A stretch of 64,000 bases of DNA from the IMG/VR virus record IMGVR_UViG_3300028676_000005, positions 62,001-126,000 of that record; one strand, written 5' to 3'. The position numbers and the translations under genes were made by a program. Below the pieces are notes generated by a model that worked only from the letters and a program-made list of their open reading frames with translations, was not told the origin of the DNA and ran no database searches. Each line of letters starts with the position of its first letter. Within the stretch, counting starts at the first letter, position 1. The stretch is from a virus. Shown here one piece after another: positions 51,778 through 62,346 of the stretch.

Positions 51778-52212
51778 TTAGTGTTTGGTGCAGCCGGCCA
51801 AAACAATACCACGGTTAATTGGAGACATTGGCGGCTTGGTGCGGTCGCCCATGTAGATCAGGAAATACAGATTGCCATTAGGGGCAAACTTTTTGAACAT
51901 CATGTCGATCGCATTACCAGAAATTCCGGTAATAGCACCACCGACAGGGATACTTAGTTTCAACTCATCCGTGAAGAGGATGTTCTTCTCCACAGTAAAC
52001 ATGTACTTGGTTTGGGTGATAGTGGTTTCCAGTTCTACTACCGGGTTATCGGTAACAAAACCGTTTTCACCATCGACGACGTTGTCGGTGTACTTGGTGC
52101 AGGTGTAACTGGTGTCGACTTTGGCATCCTCAATATAAGGAGCTTGGTAAACGGAACCAAAACAGATAGCGGGTACCAACAGTGCGAGTGCCAAAGATGC
52201 TTGTTTAAACAT
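51778..52212 (-). CDS. Secreted periplasmic protein, 144 aa
   Basis: A signal peptide is present (MFKQASLALALLVPAICFGS): Lys start, Ala/Leu core, small residues before Ser-Val at about 20. The Cys does not fit a lipobox well. The mature part is beta-rich with one Cys near each end (YTCTKYT and LAGCTKH), which could form a disulfide. Export in infected cells suggests an envelope function such as superinfection exclusion. AGGAGTACACC precedes the ATG. Confidence 0.7.
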   Translation of the reverse strand: MFKQASLALALLVPAICFGSVYQAPYIEDAKVDTSYTCTKYTDNVVDGENGFVTDNPVVELETTITQTKYMFTVEKNILFTDELKLSIPVGGAITGISGNAIDMMFKKFAPNGNLYFLIYMGDRTKPPMSPINRGIVLAGCTKH

Positions 52213-53564: not shown

Positions 53565-53774
53565 TTAGGCAGCAGCTTTACAGATGCCACGCTTGACAGG
53601 TTGTTTGTTGATACGGAGCATTGCAGCCATTACAGCACGATTGTAGGTTGCGTTAAACGCGGCTTGGTACCACTCAACCCATTTAACGTTGATTGCGCTT
53701 GGATCACCATCACAGCTTACTACAAGAGCAGGCTCACTAGTGAGGGTGTGGTTCTTCTTGATGCAAGTTTTCAT
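53565..53774 (-). CDS. Small W-x2-WY motif protein, 69 aa
   Basis: Most of the protein is one copy of a 30-35 residue motif: W-V-E-W-Y-Q-A-A-F-N-A-T, then R-A-V-M-A-A-M-L-R-I. The same motif appears twice in the 104-residue protein at 54027 and once at 59225. It overlaps the upstream gene by 38 bases. A small helical-hairpin binding module is likely. Function unknown. Confidence 0.65.
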   Translation of the reverse strand: MKTCIKKNHTLTSEPALVVSCDGDPSAINVKWVEWYQAAFNATYNRAVMAAMLRINKQPVKRGICKAAA

Positions 53775-54024
53775 TTGGTTTATCTTCCATGGTGAACAAC
53801 CCCAGCCGATCTTTCAGCAGGGATGGTTTATTTTTGGTGCTCGGCAGCGCAGGAACACTGGTGTCGAGTTGTTTAAGAAATTTGTGGACATTCCGGCCAG
53901 CGTCCAATTCAAAGTTACCAAACCCAATGGTCAGATACTCATCAGACGTCAAGCCCAACTTGATGCTACCCTCTGCGAACACGGCCGCGAGCAATCGTGC
54001 ACCTAAACTATCATTAACGTACAT
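53737..54024 (-). CDS. Hypothetical protein, 95 aa
   Basis: ATG 54024 (MYVNDSLGARLL) is preferred to one 12 bases earlier because GGTGGTG lies just upstream. The protein is alpha/beta with a His/Glu-rich tail. It lies between two W-x2-WY proteins, with overlaps or short gaps on both sides. Function unknown. Confidence 0.6.
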   Translation of the reverse strand: MYVNDSLGARLLAAVFAEGSIKLGLTSDEYLTIGFGNFELDAGRNVHKFLKQLDTSVPALPSTKNKPSLLKDRLGLFTMEDKPNENLHQEEPHPH

Positions 54025-54026
54025 AG

Positions 54027-54341
54027 TCACCACCATACTGTCTTGTGCGCTTCTGGAAGTACTTTACCTTCTGCCTTTTCTTTAATACGTCTTTTGCACG
54101 TATTCAAAGCAATGTTAGAAGATACCCTTTTACGAATACGATACCATTTTTGCCAAAGAGGATTTGGCTTGCCAGACGTAGTTTCCAATTCTGGCTCAGG
54201 CAAGATAGCAATTCTTTCACAAAAAGCACGATGTGCTGATGTGGGAGTTGCCTTATGTAAGGCGGTGTACCACTCGGTCCAGGCAGATTGATTAAATCCA
54301 CCCTCTTCCGTAAACAACAAAGGTTCTTTGTTTTCGGTCAT
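54027..54341 (-). CDS. Protein with two W-x2-WY motifs, 104 aa
   Basis: Two tandem copies of the motif are visible: SAWTEWYTALHKATPTSAHR (about 19-38) and PLWQKWYRIRKRVSSNIALN (about 60-79), each followed by a basic residue and Ile. It is the first gene behind the early-type element at 54384, with AGGTGACACC before the ATG. A repeat-type binding protein is likely; the partner is unknown. Confidence 0.65.
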   Translation of the reverse strand: MTENKEPLLFTEEGGFNQSAWTEWYTALHKATPTSAHRAFCERIAILPEPELETTSGKPNPLWQKWYRIRKRVSSNIALNTCKRRIKEKAEGKVLPEAHKTVWW

Positions 54342-54383
54342 AACGGTGTCACCTAATTAAATTGTTTAACCTTACTTACACGA

Positions 54384-54391: not shown

Positions 54392-54463
54392 GGTTCAAAC
54401 AATCCTAGAAATTAAACGGTTTACCATATAGATGAGGTTACAGTACAAAAGAAAGAACCTTAC

Positions 54464-54498
54464 TAATACCCTCTAGCCCAAAAGGCTAGAGGGTATTA
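54464..54498 (-). terminator. Terminator hairpin at the end of the 54.5-58.8 kb operon
   Basis: A perfect 15-bp stem (54464-54478 with 54484-54498) and a five-base CAAAA loop follow the 69-residue gene directly. Confidence 0.8.
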
Positions 54499-54499
54499 A

Positions 54500-54709
54500 C
54501 TAACTGCGGCTACGACCTTTTTTGGCTTTCTTTGGATAAGTAGATGCCGGGCTGGCTTTAATGCCACACAGCACTTTCTTAACACTGTTCCCAAATGCTG
54601 CGGTTGCATGGAGCAACACTCCAGCTGCACGAGAACCCCCAATAAGCAAAATCTTTTTATCAGGGTTTTCATCATCTTGTAATTCAAGAGACTTAATAGT
54701 TTCGTTCAT
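54500..54709 (-). CDS. Small basic-tailed protein, 69 aa
   Basis: An acidic N-terminus (MNETIKSLELQDDENPDKK) precedes a hydrophobic Gly/Ala segment (ILLIGGSRAAGVLLHATAAF), and the C-terminus is basic (PKKAKKGRSRS). The middle could insert into or associate with the membrane. It is the last gene of its operon. Function unknown. Confidence 0.65.
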   Translation of the reverse strand: MNETIKSLELQDDENPDKKILLIGGSRAAGVLLHATAAFGNSVKKVLCGIKASPASTYPKKAKKGRSRS

Positions 54710-55260: not shown

Positions 55261-55944
55261 CTAAATGACTTTTAAGTCATTCAAATCCAGCAAAGTGAAT
55301 TTACCAATACCAGGACGCCACCCTTCGGTATCAATGTAGTAGGTGTTACCCAGCTGGAGCATTTCCGGAACCGGGTTATGTCCCACCACTACCGCAAAGA
55401 TATCTTTGATTGGAGTAGCGTCCTTCAAGTTAAAACGAATACGGCTGTGGAAGCACTCATTCATTACAAGCTTGTGAGACTTGCGACGAAAGTTGTTCTC
55501 AAGGGCGTACACTAACTCAGCCCAGCTATCAAAATTACAGGCAGCATGAACAATACCAACGGTACCTTGTTTAGTGGCTACCTCAATTAAAACAGGCAGT
55601 TCAGTAAACTTGTCTACCAGCATGTCCTGATCCCTGAAATCAAGATGTTTGAACCACGCCCCCTTGTCTTTGTGGTTAAGCCATTTAGGTCGTGTAGCGT
55701 AGTTGACTAAATGGTTATCGTGGTTCCCACGTACCGATTCGGCATTATGCTTAGCAAGCCAAGCAGCAGCTTCATGAGACTTAGGACCACGATCTACCAA
55801 GTCACCCACAATAAACAACCGGTCTACTGCTTTGTTGTAGCCAATGCGTTCAAGCTCTGCATCAACTTCATCAAAGTGACCATGCACGTCCCCACAAGCA
55901 ATATCCCGTCCTAGAGTGTTAACCCCGAATCTTTTAACATACAT
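55261..55944 (-). CDS. PPP-type metallophosphatase (calcineurin-like), 227 aa
   Basis: Probable Ser/Thr or dual-specificity protein phosphatase of the lambda-phosphatase/bacterial PrpA type. The three PPP signature blocks are intact: GDVHG (18-22), GDLVDRG (47-53) and RGNHD (73-77), which supply the Asp, His and Asn ligands of the two-metal centre. GIVHAACNF (about 130) and VVGHNPVPE (about 190) give the later His ligands. Its length is close to lambda phosphatase (221). It could reverse phosphorylation by host or phage kinases; nucleotide substrates such as Ap4A are also possible. Confidence 0.9.
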   Translation of the reverse strand: MYVKRFGVNTLGRDIACGDVHGHFDEVDAELERIGYNKAVDRLFIVGDLVDRGPKSHEAAAWLAKHNAESVRGNHDNHLVNYATRPKWLNHKDKGAWFKHLDFRDQDMLVDKFTELPVLIEVATKQGTVGIVHAACNFDSWAELVYALENNFRRKSHKLVMNECFHSRIRFNLKDATPIKDIFAVVVGHNPVPEMLQLGNTYYIDTEGWRPGIGKFTLLDLNDLKVI

Positions 55945-55975: not shown

Positions 55976-56236
55976 TTACGGCGCTGTTTTAATAGACCCT
56001 GCGTCGTCGATCGCTTTGATCAACTTGTCATAGTCTTCTTTGGCCTTAGTCTTGGCCGTCAGCTTTACCAAGCATTCAGTGGTACGGTATTCCCCATTAC
56101 ACATTTCTTTTTGGCCGCCATCGACAATTTTCCAAGCAATGGTAGCCGCAAGTACAACGCCAAGAAGCCCAAGTACGATTGAGATAATTTTTACACTGCG
56201 TCTGATGTAAGGGTCAGACTCAGAGAAACCTTTCAT
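55976..56236 (-). CDS. CxxxYxTxxC membrane protein 1, 86 aa
   Basis: A basic N-terminus, one membrane span (about 17-36, IISIVLGLLGVVLAATIAW) and a C-terminal domain with the family motif C-NGEY-RTTE-C (about 46-55), followed by a charged helix containing Tyr (KAKEDYDKLIKAI). The motif side should be periplasmic, where the two Cys could pair. One of five such proteins in this operon. It overlaps the upstream gene by 4 bases. Confidence 0.7.
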   Translation of the reverse strand: MKGFSESDPYIRRSVKIISIVLGLLGVVLAATIAWKIVDGGQKEMCNGEYRTTECLVKLTAKTKAKEDYDKLIKAIDDAGSIKTAP

Positions 56237-56745
56237 GGCGTAATTACGATCTTGTTAGTAAAGATAACCCAATCAATCCCACGGGCATGGACCATTTTGG
56301 TTTCTTGAGGAATGTAGTTACCCTCATGCAGTTCCAAGATTAAAGTGCTGGCCAGCTTGCCGTTAGCAATTAACCCCTCTTGTAAAAGCTCAAGCATAAT
56401 TTCCCGAACGTATTCTCGCGGTTTACGTCGCATGGCACGGCTGCCATTATGAAGATACGGAGTCATTGCATCTTCAAGACGTTGAAATAAATTAACCCCA
56501 TAACCAACACCTTCATCGATCACGTTAAGATCAAAATGAATGTAAGCCGGTTCAATAGGTTTCGGCTTAGGGATAGTCTTATCCAGGCTACGGAGACGTT
56601 CCTGAAGATAGGCTTTCATCTCAGGACCGGAGGGACGGGTATCTTCGCCAGAACGCTTGGTGGTGTCGTAGATGTTGTAATACGACAACAGGTTAGCCAG
56701 GTCCGCTAAAGACATTAAGTCCAACTTCTTTTTACATGGTGTCAT
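56233..56745 (-). CDS. Hypothetical protein, 170 aa
   Basis: A soluble helical protein (MTPCKKKLDLMSLADLANLL at the start, REIMLELLQEGLIANGK later) with a beta-rich end. It overlaps both neighbours by 4 bases inside the membrane-protein operon. It may be the cytoplasmic partner of the membrane proteins. No family recognised. Confidence 0.75.
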   Translation of the reverse strand: MTPCKKKLDLMSLADLANLLSYYNIYDTTKRSGEDTRPSGPEMKAYLQERLRSLDKTIPKPKPIEPAYIHFDLNVIDEGVGYGVNLFQRLEDAMTPYLHNGSRAMRRKPREYVREIMLELLQEGLIANGKLASTLILELHEGNYIPQETKMVHARGIDWVIFTNKIVITP

Positions 56746-57269
56746 AATAATGTGGTCCTTTCATGCACGGCCACCCAAACGCCATAACGCTGGATGAGAT
56801 AAGTTGGCGAACCCATTATGGGATAAATATCACCCATAAAGGAAATACGAACGTTAAACCCGGCCAGTAAGCTGTCATATACCGGTGTTGGAATATCGAC
56901 CGCCCCAGGAGTATTCAGGTAAGCCTGTGCGACCAGTTCTGATTCAGCGCTGATCTTGTAAAACAGATCAATGATTTTCTCCAGGGGAAGCTCTGGATAC
57001 CCGTACGACAACAAATTAATGTAAACCGGGTTTGGGCGGTGTCCAATCAAAAACATAATGGTGTTTTTGAAATTCTCTTTATAATTATTAGCCAGTGCTT
57101 CCGCCAAACTTTGTTTAGCTAAAGTCTCGTTATCAGCCATGCGCTTACGACTTTCAGCATGGTAAAGCGCCACCCGACGATCTACTTCAGTAGGTTCTTT
57201 AGCAACTTCAACACGACCAAAGTTGCTAAAAAGACCCTTGAAATACATCCACCAAATCCAGTTCTTCAT
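56742..57269 (-). CDS. Hypothetical protein, 175 aa
   Basis: The N-terminus is short, aromatic and hydrophobic (MKNWIWWMYFKGLFSNFG), probably a membrane-associating helix rather than a full span. A charged helical domain follows, and the C-terminal part is beta-rich. It overlaps both neighbours by 4 bases. Function unknown. Confidence 0.7.
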   Translation of the reverse strand: MKNWIWWMYFKGLFSNFGRVEVAKEPTEVDRRVALYHAESRKRMADNETLAKQSLAEALANNYKENFKNTIMFLIGHRPNPVYINLLSYGYPELPLEKIIDLFYKISAESELVAQAYLNTPGAVDIPTPVYDSLLAGFNVRISFMGDIYPIMGSPTYLIQRYGVWVAVHERTTLL

Positions 57270-57619
57270 TTGTTTTCCTTTATGTATTTTTCATAAGCTG
57301 CTTTATTGCCTGCAGTTTTTCGCTCATGACACGCAGGAGTATCAAACTTACCCCAGCAATGGCGGTAATCAAAACCTTTAGCCCAGGTAGACAAATCTTC
57401 TGCCTGTTTTTGCATACCCATTGTAACTAGCCAGCTAAACAGCACAATCCCCGCAATAACGAATACAACATCACGAAAGGTTCGCAGACGACCTTTCAAA
57501 CTACGAGATTCAGCCAACTTAGCCGCTTCTTCTTCCCGGCGCTTTTTACTCATGCCGTGGACATACGCTAAAGTTTCTTTGCTAAGTGGCGCTGGGATAG
57601 GTGGTATATTTCTTGACAT
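57266..57619 (-). CDS. CxxxYxTxxC membrane protein 2, 117 aa
   Basis: ATG 57619 (MSRNIPPIPAP) is taken as start. After a basic cytoplasmic part with a charged helix, one span lies at about 50-66 (VVFVIAGIVLFSWLVTM). The periplasmic part carries C-WGKF-DTPA-C (about 87-96) and a Tyr-containing charged tail (AAYEKYIKENK). It matches the family spacing exactly, with Phe in the Tyr position. Confidence 0.7.
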   Translation of the reverse strand: MSRNIPPIPAPLSKETLAYVHGMSKKRREEEAAKLAESRSLKGRLRTFRDVVFVIAGIVLFSWLVTMGMQKQAEDLSTWAKGFDYRHCWGKFDTPACHERKTAGNKAAYEKYIKENK

Positions 57620-57623
57620 GTGA

Positions 57624-57872
57624 TCACCAATTAGTTCTGAAGATGGCCGCATAAAGGACCATGACTGTAATAGGGATGACCTGAGCAGCAAGTAACAGCG
57701 TTGCTGCTTTATTCTGCTTCATACGTTTCCAGATACTTTTGCGCGGCTTACGTGGTGCCGGTGCGGTATCAACAATGGTGGCAAAAAATACTGGTTCGTC
57801 CAAGTGCAATTCCTCATAAAGAGGTTGTGCAGATAACCGACGTGCTTTAAGTCGTTTATGCTTGCCGCGCAT
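57624..57872 (-). CDS. Small tail-anchored-like membrane protein, 82 aa
   Basis: A basic N-terminus (MRGKHKRLKARRL) and Pro/Lys-rich linker lead to a single hydrophobic segment near the C-terminus (about 56-77, ATLLLAAQVIPITVMVLYAA). It lacks the Cys motif of its neighbours. The topology suggests a C-terminally anchored inner-membrane protein with a cytoplasmic domain. Confidence 0.7.
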   Translation of the reverse strand: MRGKHKRLKARRLSAQPLYEELHLDEPVFFATIVDTAPAPRKPRKSIWKRMKQNKAATLLLAAQVIPITVMVLYAAIFRTNW

Positions 57873-57874
57873 GT

Positions 57875-58168
57875 TTATTCTGCCTTATTAATGTTTTGAA
57901 TCTGGCGTTCATAACTTTCGCGGGCTAACGTTGCTTTAAGACGACGCTCCAAGCACGGTGACGTGTCATACTTAGCAACACACGTTTGCTGAAAGATGAA
58001 ATCGAGGTCAGCGCGTTTATTAGCAACAAAGCGTTCGATACCCAAGAGAACTGGCACCCCAATGGCCGCGATAAGCAGAACCACCAGAATGTAACGCCAA
58101 ACCTTTTTAGCTTGTTTGTTTTTAGACAGATCAGGTCCGTTAAACAAATAGTTAATTACACCTTTCAT
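57875..58168 (-). CDS. CxxxYxTxxC membrane protein 3, 97 aa
   Basis: ATG 58168 is chosen because AGGAG is seven bases upstream and its A overlaps the stop of the 40-residue gene (TAATG). One span lies at about 27-45 (ILVVLLIAAIGVPVLLGI), then a linker, then C-VAKY-DTSP-C (about 63-72) and a charged helix ending SYERQIQNINKAE. Confidence 0.75.
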   Translation of the reverse strand: MKGVINYLFNGPDLSKNKQAKKVWRYILVVLLIAAIGVPVLLGIERFVANKRADLDFIFQQTCVAKYDTSPCLERRLKATLARESYERQIQNINKAE

Positions 58169-58290
58169 TAGCAAGCTCCTGTTAACATTGTCTTAACACC
58201 AAACAACACAAGCAAACAGCAAAAGATCACGATCCCAAAGAAAGCAAAGGCGTATTTTTCGCGTCTAAAGAAATCCTTTATCTTTTTCAT
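58168..58290 (-). CDS. Very small membrane protein, 40 aa
   Basis: A 41-codon frame (ATG 58290, stop 58168-58170) fills the gap between two family members. It overlaps both by classic coupling signals: ATGA with the upstream stop and TAATG with the downstream start. The product begins MKKIKDFFRREKYAFAFFGI and is one membrane span with a basic cytoplasmic head, ending Thr-Gly-Ala-Cys. The tight coupling argues that it is real. Confidence 0.65.
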   Translation of the reverse strand: MKKIKDFFRREKYAFAFFGIVIFCCLLVLFGVKTMLTGAC

Positions 58291-58544
58291 TGCCCCACCT
58301 CATGTTTTTTACGGGATTCAAGTAGCAACTGTTCAATCTTGAGTTGGTGACACGGAATAGTGTTGTAATCACCAGTACAGTCTTTAATAGCAGCAGTACG
58401 TTTATCTGTTGTAAGCGCTTTACCCATGTCGCCAAAGACCATTACAACAACAGCACAAATACCACCCACAATAAGTGTGCGAAAGCCGTATTCGACAATC
58501 TTGCTGTTTTGGACTTTTGGATGACGGAGAATCCTGTTAATCAC
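58287..58544 (-). CDS. CxxxYxTxxC membrane protein 4, 85 aa
   Basis: A basic N-terminus, one span (about 21-38, FRTLIVGGICAVVVMVF), then C-TGDY-NTIP-C (about 56-65) followed by a charged helix. It lies between the 73- and 40-residue genes with 4-base overlaps at both ends. The spacing of the Cys motif is identical to the other members. Confidence 0.75.
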   Translation of the reverse strand: MINRILRHPKVQNSKIVEYGFRTLIVGGICAVVVMVFGDMGKALTTDKRTAAIKDCTGDYNTIPCHQLKIEQLLLESRKKHEVGQ

Positions 58545-58762
58545 TTATTGAGTTCCTTTATTTGTTGTTCGTAAGCTTCTTTAGCTTTTGCTTCTTCGAC
58601 CATCCGCATCAAACAAGCTGAAGTACGATAACTCGCTTCACAGTTTTCTTGGGCGGATTTCCGATCAAGATAAAAAACACCCCAAAAGAACCCACCAATA
58701 ATTGAAAGCACGACAAGGATTCCAAAGATTTCTTTCGGAGTATATTTTTTAGAGTTGCTCAT
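58541..58762 (-). CDS. CxxxYxTxxC membrane protein 5, 73 aa
   Basis: ATG 58762 (MSNSKKYTPKE) is chosen over one six bases earlier because AGAG is better placed. One span lies at about 13-32 (IFGILVVLSIIGGFFWGVFY), then C-EASY-RTSA-C (about 42-51), and a charged helix ending EAYEQQIKELNK that closely resembles member 3. It is the first gene of the membrane-protein operon. Confidence 0.75.
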   Translation of the reverse strand: MSNSKKYTPKEIFGILVVLSIIGGFFWGVFYLDRKSAQENCEASYRTSACLMRMVEEAKAKEAYEQQIKELNK

Positions 58763-58792
58763 AATCATCTCTTTTCTTAGATAAAAAATAAA

Positions 58793-58820
58793 CTACCAAG
58801 TCCCGTAAAGGACCTGGTAG
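58793..58820 (-). terminator. Terminator after the 129-aa gene
   Basis: An 11-pair stem with one mismatch (58793-58803 with 58810-58820) is followed leftward by TTTATTTTTTATC, a U-rich tract. It separates the 59-64 kb genes from the membrane-protein operon. Confidence 0.75.
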
Positions 58821-58854
58821 CTACATATTAATTGGCTAACAGTTGAGAAACAAA

Positions 58855-59244
58855 TTACTTGTCAGCTCTAAACCCATGAACACTCATTGTTAATGGTTCA
58901 GGTGGTATTGGTTTTTCTGGCCTCTTGGGTAGATTAGGAGTTGGGTTCTCCATATCAATGATTTCTTTGCCTTCTAGGCGCTTTAGGCGACCGCTCAAGA
59001 AACGCAAACGATGGATCACAGCCTTGAGTAGCTCTTTGTAGTAAATGTTGTCAGCCAACGCTAGATAGTTTTCCAGACGGATAACCTCTTTGGCCAGTTC
59101 GTTATCAGACAGATGACCCAGGGCCAATTCGTCACGTTCGCACAACGAATTGTCAGCGGCCTTGGCTGGAGTACGAAACCCCATATGAGGGTCTAACTCT
59201 TGAAACAACTTATCTTCAAAATATTCAATCACTTTTTCCGTCAT
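58855..59244 (-). CDS. Hypothetical protein, 129 aa
   Basis: A charged, helical protein with a long helix (about 38-90) and a Pro-rich tail (PTPNLPKRPEKPIPPEPL). Proline-rich ends like this often act as docking tails. It overlaps the upstream gene by 20 bases, with AAGGAAC before the ATG. Function unknown. Confidence 0.7.
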   Translation of the reverse strand: MTEKVIEYFEDKLFQELDPHMGFRTPAKAADNSLCERDELALGHLSDNELAKEVIRLENYLALADNIYYKELLKAVIHRLRFLSGRLKRLEGKEIIDMENPTPNLPKRPEKPIPPEPLTMSVHGFRADK

Positions 59245-59692
59245 GACTACGTTCCTTCTTTATTTGAGCTAAACGTAATAGTCCGGCATCACGGGCTTCA
59301 ATAAGGCTACACCCTTTACCCTGACAGCGGTACCAGTCCATCCATTCAGCACTTAACCCACCAGCAACTTTGCCATGGATATTAGGCTCACCCCCGGTGG
59401 TTGCTACCTGCTCACTGTCCAACATGCCTGAATGTTTATGATCATGCATTGATAGCGCTGCTGTAACAACAGGGTTACCAAAATCTAATCGGGCGTCAGA
59501 AAGGTACAAGGGCTGTTGATCACCGATTATTACTCGGTAAATGTGACCGTTCATGTGGTCTTTACCGACTTTGTCCACACGAGCGTTCAAGTCCAATTTA
59601 AAGCCTCCACTGTACACCTTTAACAATTCTTCTGGAATAACAAGGCCAGGAAGAACTTCCACACTAATATCTGGTTGTTTAATTCGGCTCAT
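59225..59692 (-). CDS. Protein with C-terminal W-x2-WY motif, 155 aa
   Basis: ATG 59692 (MSRIKQPDISVEV) is one base beyond the upstream stop and follows AGGTGTGAG. The first 90 residues are beta-rich. The C-terminal segment EWMDWYRCQGKG then EARDAGLLRLAQIKK matches the motif of the proteins at 53565 and 54027, here as a C-terminal add-on. Function unknown. Confidence 0.65.
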   Translation of the reverse strand: MSRIKQPDISVEVLPGLVIPEELLKVYSGGFKLDLNARVDKVGKDHMNGHIYRVIIGDQQPLYLSDARLDFGNPVVTAALSMHDHKHSGMLDSEQVATTGGEPNIHGKVAGGLSAEWMDWYRCQGKGCSLIEARDAGLLRLAQIKKERSHDGKSD

Positions 59693-59693
59693 C

Positions 59694-60623
59694 TCACACC
59701 TGTGGTCGTGGGTCAACAATAGCTACAAGCTCATAAAACTCGCTAAGCAAAACGGTAAGTCCTTCTCGACTCATACCGTACTGTGCCAGGACACTCACTT
59801 GTAAACAGGACAGCACAAGACTATGATCAATATCAGGACATTTCTCAAAAATCTTCATTGTCAGATATTCCATGTGTGTGCTGTCATAAGCGCCGACGGC
59901 AAAAGCAACTCGCTGGAACTGTGTATTGATGCGCCCCATTAAATCGCTAATCGACATTACTTCACGTCGGAGATCACCGTATTTACGACCAAAGGCCGGG
60001 GATACCATAACACCAGAAGTAGGACTTCCAACCACACCACGCATGCCGTTTTCAAACTGGACTGGGTGTGGAGGAGTCAACTTGGGACGTTTGAGAGAGA
60101 GCGTGGTATGCCCTTCGATGACTTCAGCAGAAAAGATTGTTTCTGCCTGTTCTTTATTTTCTTTTGTTATTGTTGGTCCCCGCCCCATACCAACACGTCG
60201 AAAAGACTGATTAGCCGGTTGGGTGTCTTCAGGCGCAGGAGCTGTCTCAATTGGAGCACCATCAGCCGGAATAAACTTAGGACGCTCTTCTGGAGCAGGA
60301 TCAGTATCCAGGTGAACCTTGTAACGACCAAGCGCCTTTTCAAAGGCGGCTGTCAGTTCGCCAGAAACTTCACAGTTAGCTGTCAGGTGAACGTCCCGAA
60401 ACAAGCAAAAGGCCATCTCTAACAACTCGGGTACCTGAGCCGCTTTGATATCCCGTACGTTGAGATTAGCCACCCAGTTGGTATAAGCGCTAGCCGTAGT
60501 GAAATGCTGTTTAAGTTCGTCCAACCCTACTGTCTTACCAAGAACAGTTTGTGGTTTCCTTAACTCGGCAGCACTGGATGTGCGCTGGCCTTCAGGCGGA
60601 TAAGCGTGATCAGAAGCGGCCAT
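59694..60623 (-). CDS. Hypothetical protein, 309 aa
   Basis: Two helical parts are joined by a Pro/Ala/Glu-rich linker (about 108-140, with PAPEERPK and APAPEDTQP) that is probably disordered. No membrane segment or motif. It starts two bases after the 154-residue gene's stop. Function unknown. Confidence 0.75.
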   Translation of the reverse strand: MAASDHAYPPEGQRTSSAAELRKPQTVLGKTVGLDELKQHFTTASAYTNWVANLNVRDIKAAQVPELLEMAFCLFRDVHLTANCEVSGELTAAFEKALGRYKVHLDTDPAPEERPKFIPADGAPIETAPAPEDTQPANQSFRRVGMGRGPTITKENKEQAETIFSAEVIEGHTTLSLKRPKLTPPHPVQFENGMRGVVGSPTSGVMVSPAFGRKYGDLRREVMSISDLMGRINTQFQRVAFAVGAYDSTHMEYLTMKIFEKCPDIDHSLVLSCLQVSVLAQYGMSREGLTVLLSEFYELVAIVDPRPQV

Positions 60624-61967: not shown

Positions 61968-62346
61968 TCTCCTTTAAAAGTCTTTCATGGTCTTTAACCA
62001 TTTGAGGGATAGTCCCATCGACCAGAAAGTTTAACATTGGATTTAACTGTTTTAAAAGTTCGTCTATAGTCATGGGTTTAGTAATAAACGAGTTAGCAGT
62101 CCAACGGAAAGTTACTCTAATAGTTCCCGGGCTTTCGCATGTCGGTAGTGATATGCAAAAACGAAGAGCGCGAGAGAGACCATCAGACCGGGTGTAATCA
62201 AACATTGCTTCTTCGAGGTTACGACGGATGGTCGCAAGCCAGCAATTACTTAAATGACTTCCCAGCTTTCTACAAAAAGCTTCGTAAATAGCAGAAAGAT
62301 CTTTTTCTGATGCAGTAACTTCTGGCACTTCAACCTTATCGGCCAT
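61951..62346 (-). CDS. KPMT-domain protein C, 131 aa
   Basis: The divergent third member: RVTFRWTANSFITKPMTIDE and LNPMLNFLVDGTIPQMV match the shared core, while the N-terminal 60 residues differ (helical, with two Cys). The conserved K-P-M-T and F-L-V-D-G segments are the likely functional part. Function unknown. Confidence 0.7.
   Translation of the reverse strand: MADKVEVPEVTASEKDLSAIYEAFCRKLGSHLSNCWLATIRRNLEEAMFDYTRSDGLSRALRFCISLPTCESPGTIRVTFRWTANSFITKPMTIDELLKQLNPMLNFLVDGTIPQMVKDHERLLKESGIDD

Follow-up and report, generated by a model that had tools for sequence, protein, structure and literature searches.

The locus described here raises the question of what a jumbo phage might do with five small membrane proteins of one type, encoded side by side and sharing a pair of regularly spaced cysteines. 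We addressed it in a window of 64,000 bases (the whole stretch of DNA analysed), which corresponds to positions 62001–126000 of a virus record of 229,429 bases.

The window belongs to an EL-like jumbo phage

The tail fibre encoded in the window has its best match among relatives of Pseudomonas phage EL (38% identity). Compared with EL, the capsid protein is 52%, the ribonuclease 51% and the helicase 54% identical; a GroEL gene and the colinear flanks of the cluster are common to the window phage and the EL group, and the window is colinear with EL over long stretches, in reverse. The window phage is an EL-like jumbo phage of about 229 kb. Genes for the nuclear shell and PhuZ tubulin are annotated in EL itself. 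A 41-kb contig (IMGVR_UViG_3300029990_000016, L016) encodes the ribonuclease of the window phage with 100% identity; given this match, the phage was probably sampled twice.

Five paralogs share a membrane span and a cysteine motif

Five small ORFs on the minus strand (55976–58762) had been reported in the first-pass annotation as paralogs with a common plan. They are present as claimed, each with a single membrane span, then C-x3-[YF]-x-T-x2-C and then a short charged helix:

58541..58762, minus strand: paralog A, CEASYRTSAC, 73 aa; K-rich N-terminal end, span at about 12–30, charged tail
58287..58544, minus strand: paralog B, CTGDYNTIPC, 85 aa; found by leave-one-out profile
57875..58168, minus strand: paralog C, CVAKYDTSPC, 97 aa; found by leave-one-out profile
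57266..57619, minus strand: paralog D, CWGKFDTPAC, 117 aa; found by leave-one-out profile
55976..56236, minus strand: paralog E, CNGEYRTTEC, 86 aa; found by leave-one-out profile

Likely starts are ATG at 58762 for A, with AAGAAAAGAG six bases upstream, GTG at 58544 for B, ATG at 58168 rather than TTG at 58174 for C, ATG at 57619 rather than TTG at 57691 for D, and 56236 for E; those of A, C and D are corrected with respect to the first description.

Counted over all six frames of the window (644 ORF frames of at least 40 codons), the motif is observed five times, where composition would predict 0.18 occurrences; after shuffling of their residues, the five proteins contain it in 0–0.035% of cases. 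When a profile built from four of the proteins was used to find the fifth, each paralog ranked first among the 644 window ORFs and 1000 shuffles (E = 5.3e-11 for A, 8.2e-6 for B, 1e-10 for C, 3e-6 for D and 3.7e-7 for E), the best background match over these leave-one-out runs having an E-value of 0.16. Searched against the whole 229-kb record, the family profile finds exactly these five members. Leave-one-out recovery and motif statistics together bear out the paralogy.

Relatives are rare and diverged

Relatives were sought in 40 records, namely 29 EL-like IMG/VR records collected via the conserved ribonuclease and 11 named jumbo phages. This profile search of jumbo-phage genomes, which the first-pass annotation had proposed, found members in only 2 of the 40 records: five in IMGVR_UViG_2162886007_000107 (G003) and one in IMGVR_UViG_3300015262_000001 (G010). 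The motif family was absent from EL and the rest of the set by profile searches; some of these records are fragments, in which absence is no proof. Three weak profile matches in named jumbo phages (E = 0.007–0.05) were set aside, frames with stops being among them. Searches beyond this set agreed. IMG/VR scans with single proteins (A, the 175-aa protein of the operon and a 309-aa upstream protein) gave no match. No credible relative emerged from phage records by tblastn with A, B, D, E or one member of G003 as query, nor from plasmids with D as query, and motif-based DNA patterns returned from IMG/VR only G003 and G010, the other matches being short out-of-context frames. GTDB genomes gave no match to the profile query and, with the motif pattern, only frames lacking the span–motif–tail plan; the profile E-values of these frames, as low as 1.9e-6, are inflated by the selection of the loci through the motif. 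The family is rare, these searches having found it in no more than three phage genomes.

The G003 cluster lies at the same genomic place, between the same flanking genes, as that of the window. By best reciprocal scores A, B and D pair with G003 members, in conserved order (A with L048:9283–9540, B with L048:9644–9883); for C, E and two G003 members no clear counterpart emerges between the two phages, so that an ancient fixed set of five does not follow. Most forks of the family tree are without resolution. Across the motif, 23 of 23 consecutive residues are identical between D and its ortholog whereas the N-terminal parts differ, which indicates that the constrained part is the outside part.

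The motif had been called invariant with Tyr or Phe at the aromatic position. This holds for all five window paralogs, but G003 contains a Trp variant (CQGQWRTIEC); C-x3-[YFW]-x-T-x2-C after a single span describes all 11 family members in the window phage, G003 and G010. With the ten motif residues masked, significance was kept by the D ortholog pair alone, so that homology of the remaining members leans on motif, architecture and co-location. Outside the motif and plan, the members thus appear to have diverged almost completely, with weak similarity except in the D pair. That most cross-phage similarity drops to noise upon masking is what one would see if small membrane proteins without a common origin resembled each other by chance. 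Such a coincidence is nonetheless extremely improbable, given that one operon holds five motifs where 0.18 would be expected in the whole window, that G003 again has five, and that each paralog was recovered by the leave-one-out profiles; for the motif itself, the motif counts and this recovery refute it.

The motif matches no family in the libraries searched and resembles an SLC6 loop

Searches of Pfam, PHROGs, NCBIfam, PADLOC and structures gave no significant match to the motif region, and we found no matching family in the literature on jumbo-phage exclusion proteins. The earlier statement that no described family carries the motif is thus borne out in the four family libraries, with one qualification: an extracellular loop of animal SLC6 transporters has C-x3-W-N-T-x2-C. 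The best PDB sequence match of the family profile is a taurine transporter (E = 0.017), aligned over the span and HCNHSWNTPHC, with dopamine and proline transporters ranking below; D alone did not recover the SLC6 match. As in the phage family, a span is followed in SLC6 extracellular loop 2 by the motif, with equal Cys spacing and on the extracellular side. SLC6 proteins are, however, large animal transporters with a twelve-span fold, whereas the phage proteins have one span and 73–117 aa. We therefore rejected SLC6 membership, there being one span, no fold match and no similarity beyond the loop, and the likeness is most simply a convergence of disulfide loops. In the serotonin transporter (SERT), the corresponding pair of this loop is Cys200 and Cys209. 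In modelling, these two cysteines have been treated as a disulfide (PMC12139788). The same spacing, aromatic residue and Thr outside a span in SLC6 raise the plausibility that a disulfide closes the loop of the phage proteins, and by this analogy their extracytoplasmic part is probably pinned by one C-x8-C disulfide.

One sub-threshold match concerned lysis. Paralog A weakly matches an Rz-like spanin family (E = 0.037), and Rz-like inner-membrane spanins share the N-in/C-out plan, with a single N-terminal span and a periplasmic helix. The proteins could then be lysis accessories such as inner-membrane spanin-like proteins or holin regulators, which we consider improbable: the match is found in 1 of 11 members, the neighbourhood of the cluster revealed neither a lipoprotein partner nor an endolysin, and five paralogs with a restricted distribution would be unusual for a lysis gene. 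Membership of the Rz-like spanins was rejected, A alone giving the match and no partner outer-membrane lipoprotein being seen in the operon.

Topology and predicted fold

The positive-inside charge distribution favours N-in/C-out in all five window paralogs, B being the weakest, and supports the single-span, periplasm-facing topology initially proposed; the N-terminal charge bias is weaker in several G003 and G010 members. AlphaFold models were made for A and D, both from one shared 11-sequence alignment. In each, a long helix runs through the span and is followed by a short loop with the aromatic residue and the first Cys; the Thr marks the beginning of a second helix, whose first turn contains the second Cys. 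Confidence is modest (mean pLDDT 81 and 78, pTM 0.41 and 0.30). The two models agree in helix order on a shallow alignment, and since they share their input, their agreement is limited evidence for the shared fold expected from the first reading. Structure searches with the A and D models gave no meaningful fold match. The idea of an amphipathic tail gained no support, the hydrophobic moment detecting no amphipathicity, and the tails therefore provide no evidence of assembly.

Operon organisation

The proposed translational coupling was recovered: junctions from A to E are overlaps of 1–4 bases or gaps of 2–4 bases, the start of B, for example, overlapping the stop of A (GTGA). Between and around the paralogs lie the following features:

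58791..58822, minus strand: terminator-like hairpin just upstream of A, 14 pairs, T-rich tail
58168..58290, minus strand: single-span protein ending in Cys, 40 aa, between B and C
57624..57872, minus strand: 82-aa protein, basic in its N-terminal part, with the span at the C-terminal end; weak G003 relative at the same place (pairwise E = 2e-4)
56742..57269, minus strand: protein without clear span, 175 aa; weak G003 relative (pairwise E = 1e-4)
56233..56745, minus strand: soluble protein, 170 aa, no family match in family library searches
55261..55944, minus strand: Calcineurin-like / NinI-like Ser-Thr phosphatase (PHROG 246, E = 8.7e-52), next gene after E in the unit
54462..54500, minus strand: terminator-like hairpin of 18 pairs at the end of the unit, which beyond the phosphatase comprises two further genes

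Terminator-like sites overall are not over-represented compared with shuffles, so that the terminator reading draws only on the two stem lengths. The terminal Cys of the 40-aa span protein stands at the place of the first motif Cys of the paralogs, and judged from its sequence this protein might be a truncated sixth paralog. G003 too has a small span protein, between the orthologs of A and B.

The cluster is an accessory element

The interval flanked by homologs of gp129 and gp133 of EL measures 9.0 kb in the window, about 10.7 kb in G003 and only 1.3 kb in EL, where it holds no motif protein. Since EL lacks the family and the cluster sits in an expanded variable interval, we regard it as accessory, most likely an optional rather than a core part of the phage. 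Most likely, small type-II-like proteins that pass the inner membrane once have expanded here, as a new family, to five co-translated paralogs in an accessory island. Absent from the libraries searched, the family marks such an island in EL-like jumbo phages. What is new is the set of five linked paralogs with a disulfide-type motif; accessory phage proteins of small size and membrane location are already known.

The distribution also bears on a structural role. In nucleus-forming phages, the inner membrane is where capsids assemble, and the channels of the early-infection vesicle are unknown (PMC12908238). The paralogs could accordingly anchor virion assembly, or this vesicle, to the membrane, the more so as the window phage encodes an EL-like capsid protein. 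We judge this very unlikely, because EL and most relatives with that life cycle do without the family.

Possible function

Accessory position, inner-membrane location, an outward conserved loop and paralog divergence lead us to a reading in terms of envelope competition; absence from EL and most relatives, together with the expanded gp129–gp133 interval, fits an accessory function of this type. The N-terminus of each paralog would lie in the cytoplasm, with one helix crossing the inner membrane and a helix-turn-helix in the periplasm, where the C-x8-C disulfide would close the turn and the Thr cap the second helix. From the periplasmic side, the paralogs may modify the envelope of the infected cell. 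As a tentative first guess they would serve superinfection exclusion by keeping the DNA of competing phages out of the cell, every paralog perhaps having a target or partner of its own. Small membrane superinfection-exclusion proteins of the T4 Imm and Sp and P22 SieA type are encoded in accessory phage loci. The present family shares small size, membrane location and accessory locus with them but no sequence similarity in the libraries searched, which yielded neither a homolog of known function nor a link to a known exclusion protein. To our knowledge, no superinfection-exclusion protein comes in a set of five paralogs bearing this motif. The genes with their arrangement, the motif, the paralogy, the rarity and the accessory position are observed and topology and fold are predicted; the disulfide, an oligomeric or multi-target role and exclusion are what we infer. 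If rival phages are excluded, several paralogs would together make up one exclusion locus; the five-gene cassette, at less than 3 kb, is readily testable in a laboratory host.

The hetero-oligomeric complex first suggested is possible in the sense of a five-part assembly. Its strict form, in which several disulfide-pinned paralogs, none replaceable by another, would have to assemble into a periplasm-facing inner-membrane machine of undescribed type, appears doubtful. Should a complex form, it would be a new kind of periplasm-facing phage structure.

Two further roles were weighed against exclusion. Directly after the G003 cluster come a membrane protein of phrog_2087 and a LemA-like protein of phrog_1383, a pair present in 6 of 30 EL-like records. 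An envelope-stress or membrane-integrity module akin to this LemA-type pair, keeping the infected inner membrane intact until lysis, might be considered, but seems somewhat unlikely: the pair is missing from the window phage and G010, and its other five carriers lack the motif family. Pair and family occur apart and are therefore separable, and the LemA-type cassette was rejected as a fixed part of the system. Alternatively, the periplasmic or membrane parts might disarm effectors of abortive infection that are anchored in the membrane, with a separate paralog for each target. Such counter-defence would suit the accessory location, the divergence of the paralogs and the small coupled genes; with no clue in PADLOC or elsewhere, and most known membrane effectors acting from the cytoplasmic side, we consider it unlikely.

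Other features of the variable region

The Cys-rich phrog_2087 and LemA-like phrog_1383 cassette (L048:10921–12592 in G003; also in G013, G014, G015, G021 and G029) encodes proteins different from the motif family, and several carriers have it in the same variable region. A 432-aa G003 protein (L048:6438–7736) matches with its N- and C-terminal parts two separate window proteins (58855–59244 and 59694–60623), which by sequence comparison is a gene fission or fusion. A segment of about 40 residues (W-x2-WYR-x-n-EA) recurs in otherwise different small proteins of EL-like phages, one G003 protein holding it twice. Its carriers are:

window 59225–59719, 54030–54356 and 53568–53813: W-x2-WYR-x-n-EA pattern
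G003 L048:7905–8378: same pattern
EL 143375–143707: same pattern

Finally, window 51778–52212 encodes a 144-aa signal-peptide-like protein with a Cys-x-n-YTDN segment near its N-terminal end, which is kept in EL (gp136) and in other EL-like phages.
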